Shown here: piece by piece, positions 46,344 through 56,814 of the stretch
Numbering within the stretch: position 1 is the stretch's first letter
Layout of the letters: every line of letters starts with the position of its first letter
Assembly: GCF_001613795.1 (NCBI RefSeq)
Contig: NZ_LPVZ01000020.1
Span: 1,178,001-1,242,000, forward strand
Length of the DNA: 64,000 nucleotides
Reading direction: 5' to 3'
DNA from: Thalassospira sp. MCCC 1A01148
GTDB taxonomy: Bacteria; Pseudomonadota; Alphaproteobacteria; Rhodospirillales; Thalassospiraceae
Made by a program: the position numbers and the translations under genes
Notes under the pieces: generated by a model
The model's database searches: none
Seen by the model: only the letters and a program-made list of their open reading frames with translations
What the model was told of the DNA's origin: nothing

Positions 46344-46376
46344 ATACCCCAGCACATCAACGATGTGCTGGGGTAT
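46344..46376 (-). terminator. Displaced terminator hairpin of tRNA-Leu
   Basis: A perfect 15-bp stem (46344-46358 with 46362-46376) with a three-base loop, directly next to the copy of the tRNA 3' end. On the minus strand it would follow the tRNA's CCA by two bases if the island were removed, and a loosely T-rich tract follows. Therefore it is most simply the native terminator of the tRNA-Leu gene now at 56728. Confidence 0.8.
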
Positions 46377-46392
46377 GGTGCCCAGGAGAAGA
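46375..46392. repeat. Left attachment site (18-bp direct repeat)
   Basis: The 18 bases match 56727-56744 exactly and correspond to the 3' end of tRNA-Leu(CAG): CCA, acceptor arm and part of the T stem. After an indel the match resumes for a few bases. This is the expected product of site-specific integration at a tRNA. Confidence 0.92.
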
Positions 46393-46529
46393 TTGAACAA
46401 AAATCACCTGAGAACCGCAGAAAACCTATGGATATTTCCTCACAAATTTAGATTTGTTTACCAGTAGTGTTACCGATGAGCAAACGAAGAATCGAAGTCC
46501 CCCTCATCGGTTCCCAGCTATTTATCATA

Positions 46530-48125
46530 TCAGTTCACGGTCATGTGATGGCAGAGGGACGCCATAAGACTCTGATTCAGGGTTTGGGATGATAGGATTT
46601 GTGCTTCTAGCTCATCACACAAAGTCATGAGTTGATTGACTTTGGCGACGATGCGTTTTTGTTCTCCCTTGGGAGGCACGGTTACGATTATCGGATATAC
46701 TTTTTTTCCAGATATAACTGGTTGGGCCGTCGCAGAATCTCTTTCCTTTAAGTTTGTGGTCCTCAACAACCAATACAAAAACTCAATGTCGAAACAGTAT
46801 TCGGAAAACGTGGTGATAAAGGCATTATCTGTGACCCACGCTTGCGCGGGAGTAATATGTACACTGCCACAATAGAATCCTACTCTGCCAATAACTAAAG
46901 TAGGTTCAATGACGTTTGATGAAGAATGGTACCCTGTGATGCCATTCCCGCCAAAAACAGGAATTGAACCAAGCTCCATATTAGCTTTTGTCAGACCATC
47001 CCCTGATCTAATCGAAATAAGATTTCCCAATTCAGTGCGCGCCCAGCCTCTAGGTAATTGCGCGTCAACTTGTTGATTTGACGATTGGTATTTGTTTTTG
47101 GCGCATATACCTTCAGCTTTAACCTTCTCCAACAAAACACTAGCTGGCTCATCATTCGGGTCCTGCTCAACCAGTTTTCCCTGCACAGCCAATTGAAGAA
47201 TTGTTGCCCTCAGATTTTTGACCGTTTCGAGGTCATCAAACCATTTGCCAAAATTGTTCTCAGCAATAGACCAATTGGATTTGATTTCATCTTTGTCACT
47301 GGCTTCGGATAGATGATGAAGGGTGGAGGCAACACAGTCACGTTTAAGGGTGACATTGGTTTCTTGAGATGCTTCCAGCTCATCACACAAAGCCATCAAT
47401 TCATCGACCTTGGCAACGATGCGTTTTTGTTCGGCAAGGGGGGGGAGAGGAAAGGGAGAAGCAAAGAACTTTGAATCGTTAATTGCAGGGTATGCCATTC
47501 CCATCATTTGACTTTCGACGTGCCCAACAAAATCAGGGCTTCTGAGATAATGTTTGATGAAAGTTGCATCTATGCCTGAAAAAGGCGCGATTACTGCAAA
47601 GGCTGTGCTTGCTATAGGTTTTGGAGAATATTCCTGTTCAATCACAGCAATGTTTTTCAGATAGGGGCGAACGGTCGAATATATAACGGTTCCAGGTTTG
47701 ACCAGCTTTCTTGCTCGAGACGGAGCATCTTCAGGAGTAATAAGAGGAACATTACTGCCAACTTTACCCAGAACATTGTCGATAACGCTGACATCAATAT
47801 ACAAAAAATCTTGAGACGGTTTTTCTTGGCCCCATTCGTGACCAGTTTCTGCCATAGAAATCCATTTCCAGCTTTTTGGAATTAGAAATAGTGGTGAAAT
47901 CTCTTTAGGCTTTTGGCGAGATTTTTTAAATACACCTTTGGCAATCAGATTTTTCTTTTCAGCCTCAATTTTCTCCAAAAGCACACTAGCAGGCTCATCA
48001 TCTGAGTCTTGCCCTACCAATTTCCCTTGAACAGCCAACTGCAAAATCAAGTCTCTGAGCTTCTTAACCCCATCGGGTCCTTGGGCGAGGTGGCCGAACT
48101 CGGTTAGAAAGATTTCTTTATCCAT
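46530..48125 (-). CDS. hsdS: Type I restriction enzyme specificity subunit
   Basis: DNA-recognition subunit of the HsdRMS complex, 531 residues. Two target-recognition halves are apparent, each followed by a conserved helical region (LAEQKRIVAKVDELMALCDE, then GEQKRIVAKVNQLMTLCDE). The repeated segment KLRDLILQLAVQGKLVGQDS / NLRATILQLAVQGKLVEQDP separates them. The bipartite target sequence cannot be predicted. It is complete and ends 138 bases from the left attachment site. The start is two bases after the hsdM stop. Confidence 0.95.
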   Translation of the reverse strand: MDKEIFLTEFGHLAQGPDGVKKLRDLILQLAVQGKLVGQDSDDEPASVLLEKIEAEKKNLIAKGVFKKSRQKPKEISPLFLIPKSWKWISMAETGHEWGQEKPSQDFLYIDVSVIDNVLGKVGSNVPLITPEDAPSRARKLVKPGTVIYSTVRPYLKNIAVIEQEYSPKPIASTAFAVIAPFSGIDATFIKHYLRSPDFVGHVESQMMGMAYPAINDSKFFASPFPLPPLAEQKRIVAKVDELMALCDELEASQETNVTLKRDCVASTLHHLSEASDKDEIKSNWSIAENNFGKWFDDLETVKNLRATILQLAVQGKLVEQDPNDEPASVLLEKVKAEGICAKNKYQSSNQQVDAQLPRGWARTELGNLISIRSGDGLTKANMELGSIPVFGGNGITGYHSSSNVIEPTLVIGRVGFYCGSVHITPAQAWVTDNAFITTFSEYCFDIEFLYWLLRTTNLKERDSATAQPVISGKKVYPIIVTVPPKGEQKRIVAKVNQLMTLCDELEAQILSSQTLNQSLMASLCHHMTVN

Positions 48126-48127
48126 AG

Positions 48128-49585
48128 TTATTCTCCCGCCAAACGATTTAAGGCTTCAGCGAGAATGGATTTCAGCTTGTCCTGAGTTGCTGTCATGTCC
48201 TGCTGGTTCTTGTTGAACTTTTCCAACAGTTCGGCAGGGTCCATATGCGTGACATCTTGAATGTTGGGGTTCTTGATGTCCAAATTGAAGTTGTTCGCTT
48301 TGATGTCTTCAAATGACACCTTCCAAGCGTGGTCGTTTTCTTCCCTGTTATCCCACCAAGCCTTTTCAGGTTCGAACTCTTCAATCTTCATGGGCTTGGT
48401 TTTTGAATAGCTTTTGTAGCCTTCGGGGTACGGATGCTCATAAAACCAAACGTCTTTTGTCGGTTCGCCCTTGGTGAAGAACAATAGGTTGGTTTTGATG
48501 CCCGTATATGGATTGAAAACACCGTTCGGCAATCGGACAATGGTGTGCAGATTGCATTCCGTCAGGAGCTTTTCTTTGATGCGGGTTTTGATGCCCTCGC
48601 CAAAGAGAGTGCCATCAGGCAAAACAACGCCAGCCCGGCCACCATCTTTCAGAAGATGGATAATCAGCACAAGGAAGAGGTCTGCCGTTTCACGGGTTCG
48701 GAAGCTGGCGGGGAAATTATTTTCAATGCCGTCTTCTTCCATACCTCCAAAAGGCGGGTTGGTCAGGATCACTTGAACCCTGTCAGACTCTGAGTAATCC
48801 ACCAAAGGACGGGACAAGGTGTTGCTGTGTCGAATGTTGGTGGGAACATCAATGCCATGCAGAACCATGTTGGTAACGGCAAGCAAGTGGGGGAGAGACT
48901 TTTTCTCAACGCCAAAGATAGACTTTTGCAAAGTTTCTCTGTCTTCGGCACTTTTCTCGTACTGAGCGCGTTTGTGGTCAATGGTGCAGGCTAAGAAACC
49001 ACCTGTTCCACAGGCAGGGTCAAAGACCTTTTCATCCAACTTCGGGTCAAGAATATCCACCATGAATTGGGTGACGGCCCGTGGCGTGTAGAACTCACCT
49101 GCGTTTCCGGCACTTTGAAGGTCTTTGAGGATTTGTTCGTAAATGTCGCCAAAGGTATGGCGGTCATCACTTGCGTTAAAATCAATCTCGTTGATTTTGT
49201 TGATGACCTGGCGCATCAGGGTGCCAGACTTCATATAGTTGTAGGCATCCTCAAACACGTTTTTGATGACAGTGGCACGTTGCCCTTCTGCACCCGTTGA
49301 CGGCAGTTCTTTCAGTTTGGGGAAAAGCTCGTTGTTGACAAAATCAAGCAAGGCATCGCCTGTAATGCCCTCAGCATCCTTCGCCCAATTACACCAGCGC
49401 AGGTTTTCTGGCATGGGGGAAGTGAAGTCATCATCAAGGAGCTCAAGCTCCTCTTCACGGTCATCAAGGATTTTCAGAAAGAACATCCAGACGAGCTGGC
49501 TAATCCTTTGAGCGTCACCATCCACACCAACGTCTTTTCTCATTATGTCTTGGATGGATTTGATGATGCCCGATACGTTACTCAT
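48128..49585 (-). CDS. hsdM: Type I restriction enzyme methyltransferase subunit
   Basis: N6-adenine methyltransferase of the type I complex, 485 residues. Motif [13 protein letters not shown] binds SAM and motif IV NPPFGG is the catalytic site. The N-terminal HsdM helical domain is present ([20 protein letters not shown]). The ATG overlaps the hsdR stop by four bases (ATGA). It protects host DNA at the HsdS-defined site and is required for restriction. Confidence 0.97.
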
Positions 49586-51942
49586 GCAGGTTGGTCCTGT
49601 TTAAAAAGCTCGGTTTCAAGGTCATTGATGGCTTTGCCATACTGAGCCTTACCGCCGAAAATAGATTTAATGATTTCAGTGGGGGTACCGATTTGCGGGA
49701 AGGGGGCCATCATGAGGATTTTGTTGTCCTCCAATGTCGTCAAACCTTCATCGGCATATTTATCAAGTAGGGCTTCTAAAACTGCTCTGGCTTTGTCCTC
49801 GTACTTGGCAAAATAGTTTCGTTTTTTGACTTTCTCGGCACGTTCCTTCCGAGTCAGTGGGGGCTGTCCGTAAGCGACATGGCAGATCAAGTCAAAGGTG
49901 CTGTAAGACTCGCCATTGGGAACGGTTTCGCGCAAGACGTTGACGGGAACACCCTGTTCCTCAAGTTCCTTGATGATAGCGGTCTTCTTGTCTGCTTCGT
50001 TCCAGCGACGCAAAAAGGCATCCAAGGTTTCAAACTCCTTGGTGATGCTCTTGCGGGAATAGTCCTTCAAGGATTCCGTTATCAGATTGCCGTCGGCATC
50101 GAGATATTGAACCCGCTTTGAAAGGACATCCACTTCAACATCATTGATGTAGTATTTCTGCTGGCCTTCGTTGTCTTCGTGGTTGTCCCATGTGACATCC
50201 GGGGGGATTTCCTGCCCACTATCATCTACATTGTCTGGCGTTTCACCATCGTCAGGGACAACATTAGCATCTGGTTCTGGGGTATAGACTTGAACGGGTT
50301 GCCCATCAAAATCAGGGTCCGCAAAAAGCTCAGTGGCTTTTTTGAAATCCATGATGGTGAAAAACTTTTTACCGTGCTCTTCGTTGACCCGCGTGCCACG
50401 ACCTATGATTTGCTTGAACTCGGTCATGGATTGGATGCGTTGGTCCAAGACAATCAATTTACAGGTTTTGGCATCCACCCCAGTGGTCATCAGTTTTGAG
50501 GTGGTAGCAATAACGGGGTATCTGGATTCAGGATTGATAAAATTGTCCAGCTCGGCTTTGCCTTCAGGATTGTCACCTGTAATCCGCATGACGTAACGGT
50601 GGTTTTCTGCCATGCGCTCCGGGTTGGCGTTGGCAATTGCTTGTCTCATGCGCTCGGCATGGTCGATATCTTCACAGAATATGATGGTCTTGTCATAGGG
50701 GTTTGTTTCCGTGAGGAACTCCGTCACCTTTTGAGCAACCTTTTCTGTGCGCTTTTCAAGAACAAGGGTTCTATCAAAGTCCTTGGTGTTATAGATGCGG
50801 TCTTCAATCAGATTGCCGAACTTGTCCGTCTTGCCCTTTTCAGGGCGATAGCCCTCTAGGTCCTTATCAAAATCAATGCGAATGACCTTGTAAGGCGCAA
50901 GGAAGCCATCGCTGATGCCTTGTTTCAGGGAATAGCTGTAAACGGGTTCGCCAAAGTAGGCGATGTTGGAAACGTCATTTGTTTCCTTTGGCGTTGCCGT
51001 CAAACCGATATGGGTCGCGCTTGAGAAGTAATCGAGGATTCTTCGCCATGCCGAGGCTTCGGATGCACTTCCACGATGGCACTCGTCAATGACAATCAAA
51101 TCAAAGAAGTCCGGGGAGAACTGCTTGTATATGTTTTGCTCTTCTTCGGTCCCTGTGACTGCCTGATACAGAGACAGATAGATTTCATAGGACTTGTCTA
51201 CTGTCCGATTATGAATCTTCGTCATCTTGTCGCCAAAAGGGGCGAAGTCCTGTTGTTTGGTTTGGTCAACAAGGATGTTTCTATCGGCAAGGAAAAGGAT
51301 GCGTTTCTTTTGTTTGGCTTTCCACAAACGCCAGATGATTTGGAATGCCGTGTAGGTTTTGCCCGTTCCCGTCGCCATAACCAGAAGAATCTTGTTTTGC
51401 CCCTTGGCAATGGCTTCGATGGTTCTGTTGATGGCTATGGATTGGTAATAGCGGGGAGCACGACCACTGCCATCATCATAGTAATCTTGGGAGACAATTT
51501 CTGCGGCAGTGTCGGAAAGACCCTTCATGGCTTTGAACTTCTGCCAAAGCACATCAGGGGATGGGAACTCATCTAGGGTGAGTTCGGTTTCCAGCTTCTC
51601 CGAGGTTCCCGATTTGTCGTGAAACAAGAATCCCTTACCGTTGGATGAGAAGATAAACGGAATGTCCAGCATATCCGAATATTCAAGGGCTTGTTGCATT
51701 CCTGAGCCAACAGTGTGGGAATCGTCTTTGGCTTCGACAATAGCTAGGGGAATGTTCGGCTTGTGATAAAGGATATAGTCAGCACGCTTGGTTTTGCCTC
51801 GTGCCGTCATCTTACCACGCACAATGATGCGTCCGGCGGTGAAGGTAACTTCTTCCCGCATTTGGCTGTTAATATCCCAGCCTGATTTCATGATTGCCGG
51901 TGTGATGAGTTTGGTCTTCACATCGGCTTCAGACTTCTTCAT
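49582..51942 (-). CDS. hsdR: Type I restriction enzyme endonuclease/translocase subunit
   Basis: A 786-residue motor subunit. The N-terminal nuclease core carries D-x(n)-E-x-K (ADYILYHKP, then IVEAKDD and MQQALEY). The SF2 motor follows, with Walker [13 protein letters not shown], the DECH box [13 protein letters not shown], motif III GLTATP and motif [13 protein letters not shown]. The length and C-terminal layout resemble the short EcoEI/EcoAI (type IB) subunit more than EcoKI. The ATG at 51942, eight bases after GGGGGAG, is preferred over the TTG two codons earlier. It is the first gene of the hsdR-hsdM-hsdS operon. Confidence 0.95.
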
Positions 51943-52139
51943 AGCCAATGCTCCCCCGAACGTCTTTTCACCTCACAAATATGCTATGCTGAACAATATC
52001 TGCATTGTCATTTTAAGCAATAGGTTGCGGGAAAAAACACCATCATAGCGAGTTTCCGATGGTCGCAACTCTCGCATTTAGCTGGAGGCAAACAGATATT
52101 CATAGAATCAGTGGGCTATGACGGTCATAGGCCCATTTG
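51943..52139. other. hsdR promoter region and recombinase 3' flank
   Basis: The 197 bases between hsdR and the serine recombinase are AT-rich near hsdR and probably hold its promoter; an ATGACA with a CATAG-type -10 is a weak candidate. A hairpin directly follows the recombinase stop (52112-52135). Confidence 0.4.
52112..52135. terminator. Hairpin after the serine recombinase gene
   Basis: The arms tgggctatgac and gtcata-g-gccca (one bulged base) form a strong stem immediately beyond the recombinase stop. A T-rich tract follows on the plus strand but not on the minus strand, so as a terminator of the leftward gene it is imperfect. Confidence 0.5.
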
Positions 52140-52802
52140 TTATTTCTTTTGAAGACGTTCCAACAAACGCTTGACCTGCACAGCCTGCCAATCACCACCG
52201 CGCGGTGTGCTAATTCCTGCTGCATTCAAAGACGCGGCAATATCACGAAGGGTTGCCCCTTGTTCCCTGAGCGGTTTCACAATGCCTTCTAGCTTGTGCG
52301 CCCTACTATCAGCTTGTGCCTTGAGAGCCTCATTGCGCTTCATGGTCTTGTCTCTGAGTCCACCTAGCTTTTGACCACGCAGCTTGGCTTGCTTCAAAGC
52401 CGCCTTTGTCCGTTGCGATATGAAGTCACGTTCTTGCTCCGCCAATGCTGCATAGATATGAAGCTGGAACTTGTCAGCCGAAGGCATTGAAGCCACCCGG
52501 AAATCCAGCCTCTTGTCTTCCATGAGCTGCGATATAAAGGAGACCTTACGGCTCAGGCGGTCGAGCTTTGCAACCAGAAGAACGGCTTTGTCACGTTTGG
52601 CATGGTCAATTGCTTTGGTCAGTTCTGGACGGTCATCATCCTTGCCGGATTGCACATCAACGTATTCTGCAATGACCTCGAACGGTTCAGGGCTGTATGT
52701 CTCAAGATACAGGGCCAAGTCCCTCGCCTGAGCCTCAAGACCCAATCCACTTCGCCCTTGGTCTGTTGTACTTACCCGCTTGTAGATGACGTAACGTTCC
52801 AT
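52140..52802 (-). CDS. Serine recombinase (resolvase/invertase family)
   Basis: A 220-residue resolvase. The catalytic Ser is in YKRVSTTDQGRSGLGLEAQ, with AKLDRLSRKV and the long E helix (LAEQERDFISQRTKAALKQA) typical of the family. A C-terminal HTH (LRDIAASLNAAGISTPRGG) completes it. It could resolve dimers, invert a segment or assist excision. No paired inverted target segment is apparent. Its promoter overlaps several dyads. It is a second recombinase in an element that already has a tyrosine integrase. Confidence 0.92.
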   Translation of the reverse strand: MERYVIYKRVSTTDQGRSGLGLEAQARDLALYLETYSPEPFEVIAEYVDVQSGKDDDRPELTKAIDHAKRDKAVLLVAKLDRLSRKVSFISQLMEDKRLDFRVASMPSADKFQLHIYAALAEQERDFISQRTKAALKQAKLRGQKLGGLRDKTMKRNEALKAQADSRAHKLEGIVKPLREQGATLRDIAASLNAAGISTPRGGDWQAVQVKRLLERLQKK

Positions 52803-52816
52803 AAGCCTGCCCTTGC

Positions 52817-52885
52817 TAACTGGTTTGTAATTGCCAGTTAAATCGGTTTGTTACAAATGTCAACGTTCGTTGTGGTTGTAACAAA
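52817..52885 (-). promoter_or_regulatory. Operator-rich promoter of the serine recombinase gene
   Basis: On the minus strand a perfect TTGACA (52863-52858) lies 17 bases from TAACTG (52840-52835). Three dyads cover it: tttgttacaaa (52847-52857) in the spacer, an inverted match ttgtaacaaa (52876-52885) upstream, and taactgg/ccagtta (52817-52823 with 52834-52840) over the -10 and start. This is the layout of a repressed promoter or a resolvase binding site. Confidence 0.55.
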
Positions 52886-53387
52886 AAGGGGAAAACCGTT
52901 GGTAAGGACCGTGAAAATTGACAAGGCTGGGGCAATAGCCGGGACCACCCTATGGGGGGAAGTTTGCGCTAGCTCGTATACGAATGCCTGATCAGATTTG
53001 CGACCCAAAAACATCCGCGTTCAACCGGCACAATGGGACAACGAAAACATATTAAATATTATTAATATAAATAAAAAGCCCCCCTTCCCCCCATAGGTAC
53101 TCCTAAAGAATTCCTTTAGTCATCCTAAGTCTGCTTTGGCTGTTTATGGTTTCTGAGACCCTCAAACAAGGAAGGAAAGAAGAACCAGTATTCAGAGTGT
53201 CCTAGAGTCGTCTTTAAGTAAGACCTAGGTAGTCTTGGATGCCATCACAGGAAGGAAAAACACTGCCACAAAACATGTGCCTCTTCCTTCTATGGTGGCA
53301 CCCAATTGGAAGCCCGCAGAAACACTGTGGTTTCTGGTTCCTTCTTCCGGGTCAGGAAAACGAGGATCAACCCCTTAACTCCCACCC
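52886..53387. other. Non-coding block of the island with inverted repeats
   Basis: About 500 bases with no open frame of useful length. A perfect 14-bp inverted repeat (cctatggggggaag at 52949-52962 and its complement at 53084-53097) encloses 121 bases that include a very AT-rich run (53047-53077). Further right are a small hairpin (ctaaag/ctttag, 53103-53119), purine-rich tracts and an imperfect inverted pair of about 30 bases (53171-53202 with 53316-53349). It could be a replication or transfer origin, a structured RNA, or decayed DNA. Confidence 0.45.
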
Positions 53388-53882
53388 CTAAATTTTCAGG
53401 CATGAACTATTGATGCTGTTCCCTGCTGCTCCCGCCGCAAGCACATGAACTCGTTCATTTAGTTCGTCGCCGGAATGTCCTCTAACCCATTCCCAAGTTA
53501 TATCGTGCCGGGTACTGAGTTCATCCAGTTCACGCCAGAGGTCTGTGTTCTTAACAGCCTTTCCGTTTGATCCACGCCACCCCTTGGCTTTCCAGTCACT
53601 TATCCAAGTAGTCATGCCCTTGCTCAGATATTGGCTGTCAGTCACTACCCGAACGCTTGACCTACTCTGGTCAAGTGCTTTGAGCGCAGCAATAGCTGCA
53701 CTTAACTCCATTCGATTGTTCGTTGTCTCGGTCTCGCTCCCGGTAATGATACGCTCACGATCACCCTCGCAGATAATAGCAGCATACCCTCCCGGACCGG
53801 GATTCCCGGTACATGAACCATCGGTATAAATCGTAATCTGGTTGTTAGTTATCATCGTCGTCATTTTTGATTTGTTATTCAT
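53388..53882 (-). CDS. rnhA: Ribonuclease HI, mobile-element version
   Basis: Cleaves RNA in RNA-DNA hybrids. Three of four active-site acids are clear: YTDGSCTGNPGPGG, the Glu in NNRMELSAAIAAL and the Asp in VVTDSQYLSKGM. The fourth, Asp134 of E. coli, lies in the usual NERCDELA, but here the residues are NERVHVLA (codon CAT, His). Reports on E. coli RNase HI indicate this position tolerates His, so activity may remain. It starts inside the stop of the 34-codon gene (ATGA). It is a second-copy type, carried by the island. The host gene would lie elsewhere. Confidence 0.93.
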   Translation of the reverse strand: MNNKSKMTTMITNNQITIYTDGSCTGNPGPGGYAAIICEGDRERIITGSETETTNNRMELSAAIAALKALDQSRSSVRVVTDSQYLSKGMTTWISDWKAKGWRGSNGKAVKNTDLWRELDELSTRHDITWEWVRGHSGDELNERVHVLAAGAAGNSINSSCLKI

Positions 53883-53983
53883 CCAGCCGATACAGGCCGA
53901 CTATTTGGCAGCGCGAAGATCCCCTCACGAATGAGCCGATCAAGAATTGCTGCCTTCTGGTTTTGTGTAAGTTGGATCACCAT
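53879..53983 (-). CDS. 34-residue protein encoded between the DUF3102 and RNase H genes
   Basis: A small gene too short for usual callers. The ATG at 53983 has a strong GAAGGAGG seven bases upstream, inside the end of the DUF3102 gene. The TGA overlaps the rnhA ATG by four bases. The product begins MVIQLTQNQKAAILDRLIR and is mostly a predicted amphipathic helix, then a short Pro/Ser tail. No family is recognised. Either it has its own function or its translation mainly drives coupling to rnhA. The ribosome-binding site and overlap support translation. Confidence 0.65.
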   Translation of the reverse strand: MVIQLTQNQKAAILDRLIREGIFALPNSRPVSAG

Positions 53984-53985
53984 GA

Positions 53986-54633
53986 TCAGTCCTCCTTCTG
54001 CGTCAGTTTGGTAATCAGTTCAGGGTATTCGGCCATGCAGTAGCCAATGATCTGGATAAGTTGGGCGCGTGATTTCTTCCCAAAGGCTTGCTGAAGGAAG
54101 TCATCAACCTTTTCCTCAACTTCTGTCTTGGAGGGGTTCTTCTTCCCTGCCTCCTCCATCAGTTCTTCAGGGGTCTTTCCGAAGGATTTGGCGAAGGCTT
54201 CGAGTTTTCCCTTGGCAACCTCACGCTCATGCTCAGTGCCACGCACAGCCATTGCATGTAGCTTCTGTGCATATTCAGCGTCTGTCTGTGAGAAGGACTG
54301 AAGGTGGGCTTTGGGTTTGCGACTGTTAGCAACTTGGTCGAGGAAAGAGTTGATCCCCGCGTCCATATCAAAGGTGCCCTGCGGGGCACTTTTAGCGATC
54401 TGCATATACTTCGCTGCCTGCCGGTAGCTGAAGCTACAGTTCTCCTTGATCCACGGCTTGAACTCCCCGTGCTTCAAAGTCTTTTTCACACGGAGCAATT
54501 CCTCACCAGCAGCTTTCGCTTCACGGAGCATCCCCTTGCCATGCTCAAGGATGTTCTTGTGGTGGGTGTTGATTGTTTGGGCGCTGAGAGATAGTGGCGC
54601 GATTGTGACTGTGGTGTTGGTACCTCGGGTCAT
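53986..54633 (-). CDS. DUF3102 domain protein
   Basis: The central part matches DUF3102 (GEELLRVKKTLKHGEFKPWI, then CSFSYRQAAKYMQIAK), a domain common in phage and plasmid proteins of unknown role. The rest is highly charged and helical. Two ATGs are possible, 54636 and 54633; the second is six bases from the GGAGG and is preferred. The GGAGG lies in the arm of a 9-bp stem, so translation may be controlled. It leads an operon with the small gene and rnhA, each tightly joined. Confidence 0.8.
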   Translation of the reverse strand: MTRGTNTTVTIAPLSLSAQTINTHHKNILEHGKGMLREAKAAGEELLRVKKTLKHGEFKPWIKENCSFSYRQAAKYMQIAKSAPQGTFDMDAGINSFLDQVANSRKPKAHLQSFSQTDAEYAQKLHAMAVRGTEHEREVAKGKLEAFAKSFGKTPEELMEEAGKKNPSKTEVEEKVDDFLQQAFGKKSRAQLIQIIGYCMAEYPELITKLTQKED

Positions 54634-54639
54634 CATAAA

Positions 54640-54681
54640 CCTCCATAGTCAAGCAAAGTGTGATTGGGCTATCTATGGAGG
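54640..54681 (-). promoter_or_regulatory. Inverted repeat covering the DUF3102 ribosome-binding site
   Basis: The 9-bp arms cctccatag (54640-54648) and ctatggagg (54673-54681) are perfect complements, 24 bases apart. In the message the right arm is the Shine-Dalgarno GGAGG of the DUF3102 gene, three to six bases before its start. A hairpin here would hide the ribosome-binding site. Alternatively it is an operator dyad. Confidence 0.6.
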
Positions 54682-54997
54682 CACCTAATCAACATCGCCG
54701 TAGATGGCTATAATTTGACCACACAGAGGGTTTAAACTTTAATGCTCTTATGGTAGCGAAAAAAGATCAAGGGACGTCAGTGACGAAAAAATCGGCATTT
54801 ACGTTGTTTTTTGGTTTCCTGATAAGTGTCGGTTTCGACTACAATCAAAATGGTGATAGTTGCCCGAGACCGTAAATACAGGAAGGCAACAATGATACCT
54901 CTCAACATTACTTCACGACAGGTACCGAGCTGATATTTGAATCCACCCATGCAGCTACCCCAGAACCCCAAGAATCTCTTGGTTCGGCTCGGGGTAT
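54682..54997. other. AT-rich spacer between the DUF3102 operon and integrase
   Basis: There is no supported gene. It should hold the promoter of the DUF3102 operon; a TATAAT on the plus strand at 54709-54714 is not clearly placed. An imperfect hairpin at 54957-54995 (accc c/ggggt, gaacc/ggttc and aaga/tctt pairs) directly follows the integrase stop and may be its terminator, although a T run is lacking. Confidence 0.45.
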
Positions 54998-56683
54998 TCA
55001 GACCTGATAACGAGGTATCTTGCAGATTTCCCGATAAAGCCCGGCGGGGTCACCATATTCCCGCTCATCGACCCCCGCACCTGTATGACCTGTGATCATC
55101 CGACGCAGTTCCTGAGACATACCGTATTCACGCGCCATCGTAACAAAACGATGCCGCCACCCGTGATTAGGCTTTACATTCGGGTCTGTAATCACCTGCC
55201 GTGCAAATTCCCGTAATCTGTTCTTTGCAGAATTCCACGACCCCCTGATCTCACCTTTGGCATTTGGCTTAAGGAACAAATAGCCGTCGTCCTGAGACCG
55301 CACAAAGTCAATGAACCCGGTCTCGACAAGGTGGGGGTGTATCGGGACCTCTCTGTATTCGCCATCCTTCACAGTTACTGTCCCATCAGGCGTTATGAAG
55401 ATCGCGAAATGTTTGCCATGGTCGATCAGATCAGACTTGCGTAACTGAACAATCTCACCCACCCGCGCCCCTGTATAAGCGCAGACCCAAGGCACCCATC
55501 GCTTTGCATTGAGAAGCTTTTGCGTCTCATTTGGCTGTGTCCGTGAATAGTTCAGGGAATGACGCAACAAAGCAACGGCCTCAGCTTCGGTAAAGCCTTT
55601 GGGCCTACTACGTTTGACCTTGGGCAGAGCAACAGTCACCCCCTTGGCAGGGTTATCTGCGATCAGGTGCTGACTTACACCCCAGTTAAAGACGGACTTC
55701 AAACCTGCCAACTCAGAATCCTTGATTGTCCGTGCTGAGATCGGCTTTCCGGTTCGGGGGTTTACATCTGAAAGTCGTTTGTCCTTGTAGCCAACAACAT
55801 CACGAGGCGTTACCTTGGTTGCGTCATCATGTCCAAGGTAGTCGATAAAGTATCGAACGGCTTTGCTGTAACTCTCGTATGTACTTACGGAGCGACCACC
55901 ATCTCGGCCAGCTTCTTTCCACCAGCCCTCCAAAAGCTGGGTGATGGTAACTTGGGGCGCGGCCTTTGTCTCAGGAGCCTTACGGTCTTCCCAGTCTGGA
56001 AAACGAGATTCGTAACTGTCAGGTGTGTAATCACCAAAGCTGTGACGTTGCAGTTTTTCTGCTGCAAGATCCATCGCAACAGCAACCTGCTCCAGTAGCT
56101 TTGCGCGGCTATCGTCATCGACAACGAGCCCACGCTTGGATAATGCAACGTCCGCAAATGCACCAAAGCGATCTTCTAGGCTTTTTCTGGTCTTAGAGGG
56201 ACTAGGGATCATCAGTTGGGCCACGCCAAACTCACCACGCAGGGCAGCTTTGTCATCAGCTTTTACCCTTCCCCATAACGATGGGGAACCCGGATCGTCT
56301 TCAAGTGCGCCTACCCAAGCCCTGTATATTTCTCCGGCAAGCGCAACAGCCTGCTTCATTGTCAGTTTTTCAGGTCCGCTCCGAATCGACTGCCAAACCC
56401 CTTCGAGATAAGCGGCAATCTGTGCCTGTCTGATTTTGGCTTCATGAGGATCACGAGTGGCAAGCGATACCTTAACGACCGATGCAGATGCACTAACCGT
56501 GCGAGAGACGATTTTGTCACCCACAGGGATAGAAAGTTTCGTACCGGAAATCTTTGGACGTATGTCAGCCGGAATACGCTGAACAAAGTATAGGATGCTT
56601 GAATCTTTACGCCGCATCGGACGGACCAACCGGAAAAGCATTGTTCCCCACCATTGTGTACCAGTTTGGTGAGGAATAACCAT
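54998..56683 (-). CDS. Tyrosine recombinase/integrase of the island
   Basis: A 561-residue phage-type integrase. An N-terminal region (YFVQRIPADIRPKI) like those of large proteobacterial integrases is followed by a SAM-like core-binding domain (QVTITQLLEGWWKEAGRDGG) and the catalytic domain. Active-site residues are Arg in YTGARVGEIVQL, His-x-x-Arg in HGWRHRFVTM and His/Tyr in ITGHTGAGVDEREYG. The start may be internal (Met at 56641). The gene lies 44 bases from the tRNA-Leu 3' end with its product suited to recombine the 18-bp core. Confidence 0.95.
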   Translation of the reverse strand: MVIPHQTGTQWWGTMLFRLVRPMRRKDSSILYFVQRIPADIRPKISGTKLSIPVGDKIVSRTVSASASVVKVSLATRDPHEAKIRQAQIAAYLEGVWQSIRSGPEKLTMKQAVALAGEIYRAWVGALEDDPGSPSLWGRVKADDKAALRGEFGVAQLMIPSPSKTRKSLEDRFGAFADVALSKRGLVVDDDSRAKLLEQVAVAMDLAAEKLQRHSFGDYTPDSYESRFPDWEDRKAPETKAAPQVTITQLLEGWWKEAGRDGGRSVSTYESYSKAVRYFIDYLGHDDATKVTPRDVVGYKDKRLSDVNPRTGKPISARTIKDSELAGLKSVFNWGVSQHLIADNPAKGVTVALPKVKRSRPKGFTEAEAVALLRHSLNYSRTQPNETQKLLNAKRWVPWVCAYTGARVGEIVQLRKSDLIDHGKHFAIFITPDGTVTVKDGEYREVPIHPHLVETGFIDFVRSQDDGYLFLKPNAKGEIRGSWNSAKNRLREFARQVITDPNVKPNHGWRHRFVTMAREYGMSQELRRMITGHTGAGVDEREYGDPAGLYREICKIPRYQV

Positions 56684-56727
56684 TTGTTTTCGGGAGGTTC
56701 CCGGTATCTCTAGGATACGCGGGAGAA

Positions 56728-56814
<87 letters not shown>

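Follow-up and report, generated by a model that had tools for sequence, protein, structure and literature searches.

A probable overlooked 34-codon gene behind a DUF3102 gene on an apparent mobile island of Thalassospira

Introduction

Between a DUF3102 gene and an RNase HI-like gene (rnhA) in a Thalassospira genome lies an open reading frame (ORF) of 34 codons, stop included, which raises the questions of whether it is a gene and, if so, to which of its two neighbours it belongs. An earlier inspection of the DNA (referred to below as the sequence-only reading) had proposed a real, overlooked small gene coupled to that of RNase H. We have reexamined the locus within the stretch of 64,000 nucleotides that was analysed, referred to as the window, and by comparison with related loci in other genomes. 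The result is real but small. There is probably an overlooked gene and it was correctly spotted, for reasons that were partly wrong and with the wrong partner emphasised. A 34-codon ORF of this kind, easily missed by annotation, can gain support at the protein level from one distant neighbour with the same gene order, and the comparison corrects which neighbour matters, namely DUF3102, a name that a full-text search located in only three papers.

The ORF and Its Genomic Setting

The ORF, encoding MVIQLTQNQKAAILDRLIREGIFALPNSRPVSAG, lies within an apparent mobile island of about 10.4 kb, the main features of which are summarised in Table 1. Its ATG, at 53983, is 2 nt past the DUF3102 stop and is preceded, at a spacing of 7 nt, by the Shine-Dalgarno motif AAGGAGG, while its stop codon, TGA, shares bases with the earliest ATG available to rnhA, as ATGA. 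The computed pairing of this ribosome-binding site with the 16S tail yields -12.2 kcal/mol, a value matched by none of 600 randomly drawn window ATGs. The strong and correctly placed Shine-Dalgarno sequence and the two-base distance to the upstream gene are therefore as the sequence-only reading described them.

Table 1. Features of the apparent island and of the small ORF, with window coordinates.
Feature	Coordinates	Strand	Basis
Apparent mobile island holding the ORF, about 10.4 kb	46375..56814	.	tRNA, repeat, integrase, resolvase
18-nt exact repeat of the tRNA 3' end	near 46392		Repeat; on this basis the insertion is apparent only
Type I restriction-modification-like genes	46530-51948		Names assigned by visual inspection of ORFs
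Serine resolvase	52140-52802		Pfam
rnhA, RNase HI-like, downstream of the ORF	53388..53882	-	Pfam PF00075, 1.9e-44; NCBIfam NF001236, above cut-off
34-codon ORF	53879..53983	-	Open frame, confirmed as first described
Conserved core of the ORF, codons 1-21	53921..53983	-	Matched by the G128 ORF behind DUF3102, L073:1501-1563
Shine-Dalgarno AAGGAGG, within the DUF3102 gene end	53991..53997	-	Duplex energy with the 16S tail
DUF3102 gene, upstream of the ORF	53986..54636	-	Pfam PF11300, 35.4 bits against a cut-off of 24.4
Integrase	54998-56683		Pfam
tRNA-Leu(CAG)	56728-56814		Adjoins island genes

No family above threshold was found for the peptide in Pfam, PHROGs or NCBIfam, in agreement with the initial view that its product has no known family. 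The sole listing was Pfam HTH_22 (PF13309), for which residues 4-30 weakly resemble profile positions 19-45 of 63 (E 0.019). Membership was rejected given a score of 15.5 bits, against a cut-off of 29.6, and the coverage of those positions only; the ORF lacks the second half of the domain, and the homologue described below, in genome G128, matches no Pfam profile even at E-values up to 10.

Packing, Codon Usage and Predicted Structure

The sequence-only reading attached weight to the close packing of the ORF between its neighbours, holding it to be rare by chance. The 103-nt gap was shuffled 20,000 times with its dinucleotide composition preserved and the real flanks kept, and mononucleotide shuffles were run alongside. 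Packing was scored as comparable where an ORF started within -10 to +15 nt of the DUF3102 stop and ended within 10 nt of rnhA Met1. Comparably packed ORFs arose in 6,016 of the dinucleotide shuffles (30%), 3,994 of them with an ATG, and the exact ATGA layout, within 5 nt, arose in 277 (1.4%); the corresponding numbers for mononucleotide shuffles were 3,064, 1,392 and 135. The high frequency occurs partly because rnhA opens with ATGAATAA, which forces stops in two of the three frames. Chance thus yields comparable ORFs often, and packing alone is weak evidence for a gene and was rejected as proof of one.

The codon usage of the ORF falls between that of spurious and real reading frames. Its score of 0.93 was reached by 6% of 274 window ORFs of similar length, a spurious set that possibly contains genuine small genes as well as the ORF under study. 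It was exceeded by 88% of 82 real-gene fragments, with 12% at or below it, the fragments being taken from the same seven island genes on which the codon model was trained.

The peptide had also been described as mostly an amphipathic helix. AlphaFold2, run with two sequences, predicts a single helix at residues 7-19 (mean pLDDT 76, pTM 0.39), so that the helix is retained, but its amphipathicity is ordinary: the hydrophobic moment is 0.33 against a shuffle mean of 0.28, and 34% of shuffles reach 0.33. Amphipathicity was consequently discarded as evidence for a gene.

A Close Copy in Thalassospira australica

A species-level scan, with one genome per species, revealed four loci encoding a close relative of the DUF3102 protein, and one of these, from T. 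australica (G003), has its genes in the same order and keeps the 34-codon frame intact (L002:4654-4758). It is the sole other island found in which DUF3102 and rnhA are both intact (n = 1), the setting in which a broken frame had originally been named as the observation that would speak against a gene. The peptides are identical at 31 of 34 residues and the stop-start overlap with rnhA is retained. The T. australica Shine-Dalgarno sequence, AAGGATGA, is weaker, at -6.0, with 12.7% of random ATGs equally good.

The two Thalassospira copies differ at six nucleotides, three synonymous and three nonsynonymous, and these are unevenly placed, with two synonymous and no nonsynonymous differences in codons 1-24 and one synonymous and three nonsynonymous in codons 25-34. 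Since DNA identity is 97.1% for DUF3102 and 94.3% for the ORF, this pair alone cannot prove that the ORF is coding.

A Homologue behind DUF3102 in Another Family

A second comparison concerns G128, a genome from another family of the same order, in which the DUF3102 gene is 46% identical. Directly behind it, with its ATG 1 nt past the DUF3102 stop, lies an ORF of 116 codons (L073:1501-1851) that has a strong ribosome-binding site (-11.4) and starts with MTVQLTTKQKAALFDRMLEEG, compared with MVIQLTQNQKAAILDRLIREG for the window ORF. Over codons 1-21, a limit that was chosen after the local alignment was seen, 12 of 21 residues (57%) and 42 of 63 nt are identical, and the mismatches are distributed over codon positions 1, 2 and 3 as 8, 3 and 10. 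The ungapped BLOSUM62 score over these codons is 67, which was reached by one of 20,000 mutation controls with an equal number of mismatches randomly placed, by none of 20,000 peptide shuffles and by none of 21,833 start-anchored 21-codon windows (maximum 28), the last drawn from the fetched loci with those of the three carriers excluded. When all 34 codons are compared, the score drops to 44 and the pattern across codon positions weakens (17, 13 and 21). The silent and conservative bias indicative of selection at the protein level is therefore present over codons 1-21 and not visible over the full length.

By itself, the G128 peptide match is not significant (E = 0.024 in 317 genomes of the order), and its strength lies in its position directly behind DUF3102. 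The peptide search yielded six genomes at E <= 0.05 among the 317 and the DUF3102 search yielded 16; beyond the two Thalassospira genomes, only G128 occurs in both lists, and with the match at the same spot. The intact T. australica frame and the match of the first 21 codons behind DUF3102 in G128, with its coding substitution pattern, together make it very probable that the ORF encodes a protein, and the same comparison points to DUF3102, not rnhA, as its conserved neighbour.

The two ORFs also differ. That of G128 is more than three times longer, shows no similarity past residue 21, and has no RNase H seen nearby: none was recognised by eye among the long ORFs (at least 90 residues) in its 16-kb stretch, which include, also read by eye, a resolvase, a helicase-like protein and an integrase. 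Coupling to RNase H, in the sense of a conserved association, is accordingly not borne out. Within the order, none of the other genomes among the 317 contained a convincing homologue of the G128 ORF (the best E-value apart from its own was 0.005), and none was detected in plasmids, phages or viral contigs. A stretch of about 30 nt of the G128 DUF3102 gene (L073 about 1192-1222) recurs, as judged by eye, at 1789-1819 in the 3' part of the ORF, a sign of local rearrangement, and the end of the ORF may be rearranged given that its last part lies beyond this repeat. Length is thus not conserved, and the 34-codon form may be either complete or shortened.

Distribution among DUF3102 Loci

The ORF lies beside DUF3102 in three of the 16 DUF3102-bearing genomes of the order and is absent from the other 13. 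On examining the region 3' of the DUF3102 frame in 22 loci, which include several from one genome, it was present in three of the 21 that were readable, the remaining one being too short. The DUF3102 loci of other genomes carried no such peptide behind them. In a sample of the phylum, DUF3102 occurred in 23 of 398 genomes, and the peptide was matched, within the fetched flanks, only at the window's own locus. Apart from the carriers' loci, the best peptide score among 60 loci was 60, in a locus picked by the peptide search, the others reaching at most 39. A match in G275 (score 60), inside a 518-residue frame that resembles a class III aminotransferase, was attributed to chance. It illustrates that a score near 60 arises in a search of 317 genomes, such that the G128 case depends on position. 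Weak peptide hits elsewhere in Thalassospira (E 0.016 to 2) were put down to chance on their E-values.

Neither the DNA of the region nor the peptide matched in plasmids; the phage matches of the peptide, at E 5, were to two records of a single phage, and viral contigs yielded no DUF3102 relative with either a single-sequence or an alignment scan.

Start and Possible Coupling of rnhA

Two starts are candidates for rnhA, Met1 at 53882 and Met7, the seventh codon, at 53864. Several chromosomal Thalassospira rnhA genes open with MTS or MTT, about 13-14 residues ahead of the TDG motif of the active site, a spacing that fits Met7 better than Met1, and the G014 rnhA, closest to that of the island (56%), begins MGNK, like Met1. 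The overlap as ATGA with the first rnhA ATG, as originally described, is therefore present, but that rnhA starts there is uncertain. By computed duplex energies, none of the candidate starts is preceded by a good ribosome-binding site (Met1 -1.7, Met7 -3.1 and Met10 +0.7, against a random ATG mean of -2.76).

The review PMC12548453 describes short ORFs that hand ribosomes on to the gene behind them. In PMC6728339, 13 of 14 tests of overlapping gene pairs revealed coupling, and reinitiation at such pairs is reported to be common. The present locus shares with these delivery ORFs a strong site, a short ORF, a stop at or near the next start and a following gene that appears, by computed energies, to lack a good site; the layout, ATGA with Met1 or 14 nt to Met7, occurs in both Thalassospira copies and is not rare by chance. 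It differs from the cases described there in that the N-terminus of the peptide is conserved beside another gene, DUF3102, at a locus in which no rnhA was recognised. Translational coupling of the ORF to rnhA is plausible from this layout and would be a local link.

Interpretation and Alternatives

We favour the view, at a probability of about 0.6, that the ORF is a real, translated small gene of a DUF3102 operon on a tRNA-Leu-borne mobile island, with a functional N-terminal peptide and probable reinitiation at rnhA. Ribosomes would load at the strong Shine-Dalgarno sequence inside the DUF3102 gene end and produce a 34-residue peptide, the first 21 or so residues of which, mostly one predicted helix, would constitute the conserved functional part, while the last 10 or so may drift freely. 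The peptide would most likely act with the DUF3102 protein or with the regulatory target of DUF3102. In Thalassospira islands, ribosomes terminating on the ORF would probably help to start rnhA, a step proposed because rnhA appears to lack a good ribosome-binding site. Of this most likely mechanism, the accessory-protein half draws on the comparison and the rnhA-feeding half on the layout. We count against it that the comparison is limited to two close copies and a partial, distant homologue, that the G128 match lacks significance by itself and the 34-codon length is not conserved, that 13 of the 16 DUF3102-bearing genomes of the order do not carry the ORF, that the T. australica Shine-Dalgarno sequence is weaker, and that the codon score is below that of most real-gene fragments.

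The first of three alternatives, which we regard as unlikely though deserving attention, is that the ORF is the 5' remnant of a longer gene, comparable to the 116-codon ORF of G128, that was cut when rnhA came to lie behind DUF3102 and is perhaps still translated with its function lost. The G128 ORF shares the start and then continues, the T. australica locus yielded no match to its later part, and the last ten codons show the excess of nonsynonymous change given above. Against this reading, the start and frame are kept and codons 1-24 differ only synonymously between the Thalassospira copies, and the G128 ORF, itself an orphan with an end that reads through the copied DUF3102 stretch, is a poor standard for the full-length gene.

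The second alternative, doubtful in our estimation, assumes that the ORF is solely a translational adapter that brings ribosomes to rnhA and that its peptide has no function. The strong site of the ORF, the weak computed sites of rnhA, the overlap kept in T. australica and the precedents cited above all accord with it, whereas an adapter for rnhA would not need the protein-level conservation of the N-terminus seen in G128, and rnhA may start 14 nt past the ORF stop.

That the ORF is a chance open frame between two genes is very improbable, and is largely refuted by the homologue in G128, by where it lies and by how its mismatches fall on codon positions, with the very strong ribosome-binding site of the window ORF adding to the case, even though the packing frequency in shuffles and the intermediate codon score are compatible with chance and the intact T. 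australica frame says little when neighbouring genes are 92.5-99.7% identical there.

Returning to the favoured reading of a functional peptide, our best guess is a small helical accessory protein, perhaps cut down from a longer one, that belongs to a DUF3102 mobile-island operon and also supplies rnhA with ribosomes. If the partnership is true, it offers a handle on the role of DUF3102 proteins on islands, plasmids and phages. Tentatively, and with considerable reserve, this might be extended to some alphaproteobacterial island DUF3102 proteins having a dedicated small helical partner that has not been described before and whose gene immediately follows theirs. The N-terminal helix of this partner, QLTxxQKAAxxDRxxxEG, would be the conserved module, occurring alone (34 residues) or heading a longer protein, and the partner would modulate the DUF3102 protein.

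Other Observations

At two other loci from genomes of the order (L081 and L090), DUF3102 is closely followed by a different gene of about 208-210 residues (MHYIRRVTDLETGEVK... and MDYIRRVTDLETGEVK...), so that a partner lying close downstream is sometimes found with DUF3102 genes. On the Leptospira interrogans plasmid p5 (L119, 2225-3501), a DUF3102 gene lies directly behind, and overlaps, a ParA-family gene, which suggests that some DUF3102 proteins act in partition or regulation.

Near the C-terminus of the island RNase H (ERVHVLA), a His occurs where nine of ten aligned RNases H (every one except the island enzyme, and with that of T. australica among them) carry Asp, a position that we take to be E. 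coli Asp134. In E. coli, Asp134 is one of the four metal-coordinating carboxylates of RNase H, as stated in passages of PMC8042393. The island enzyme may be altered or metal-shifted.
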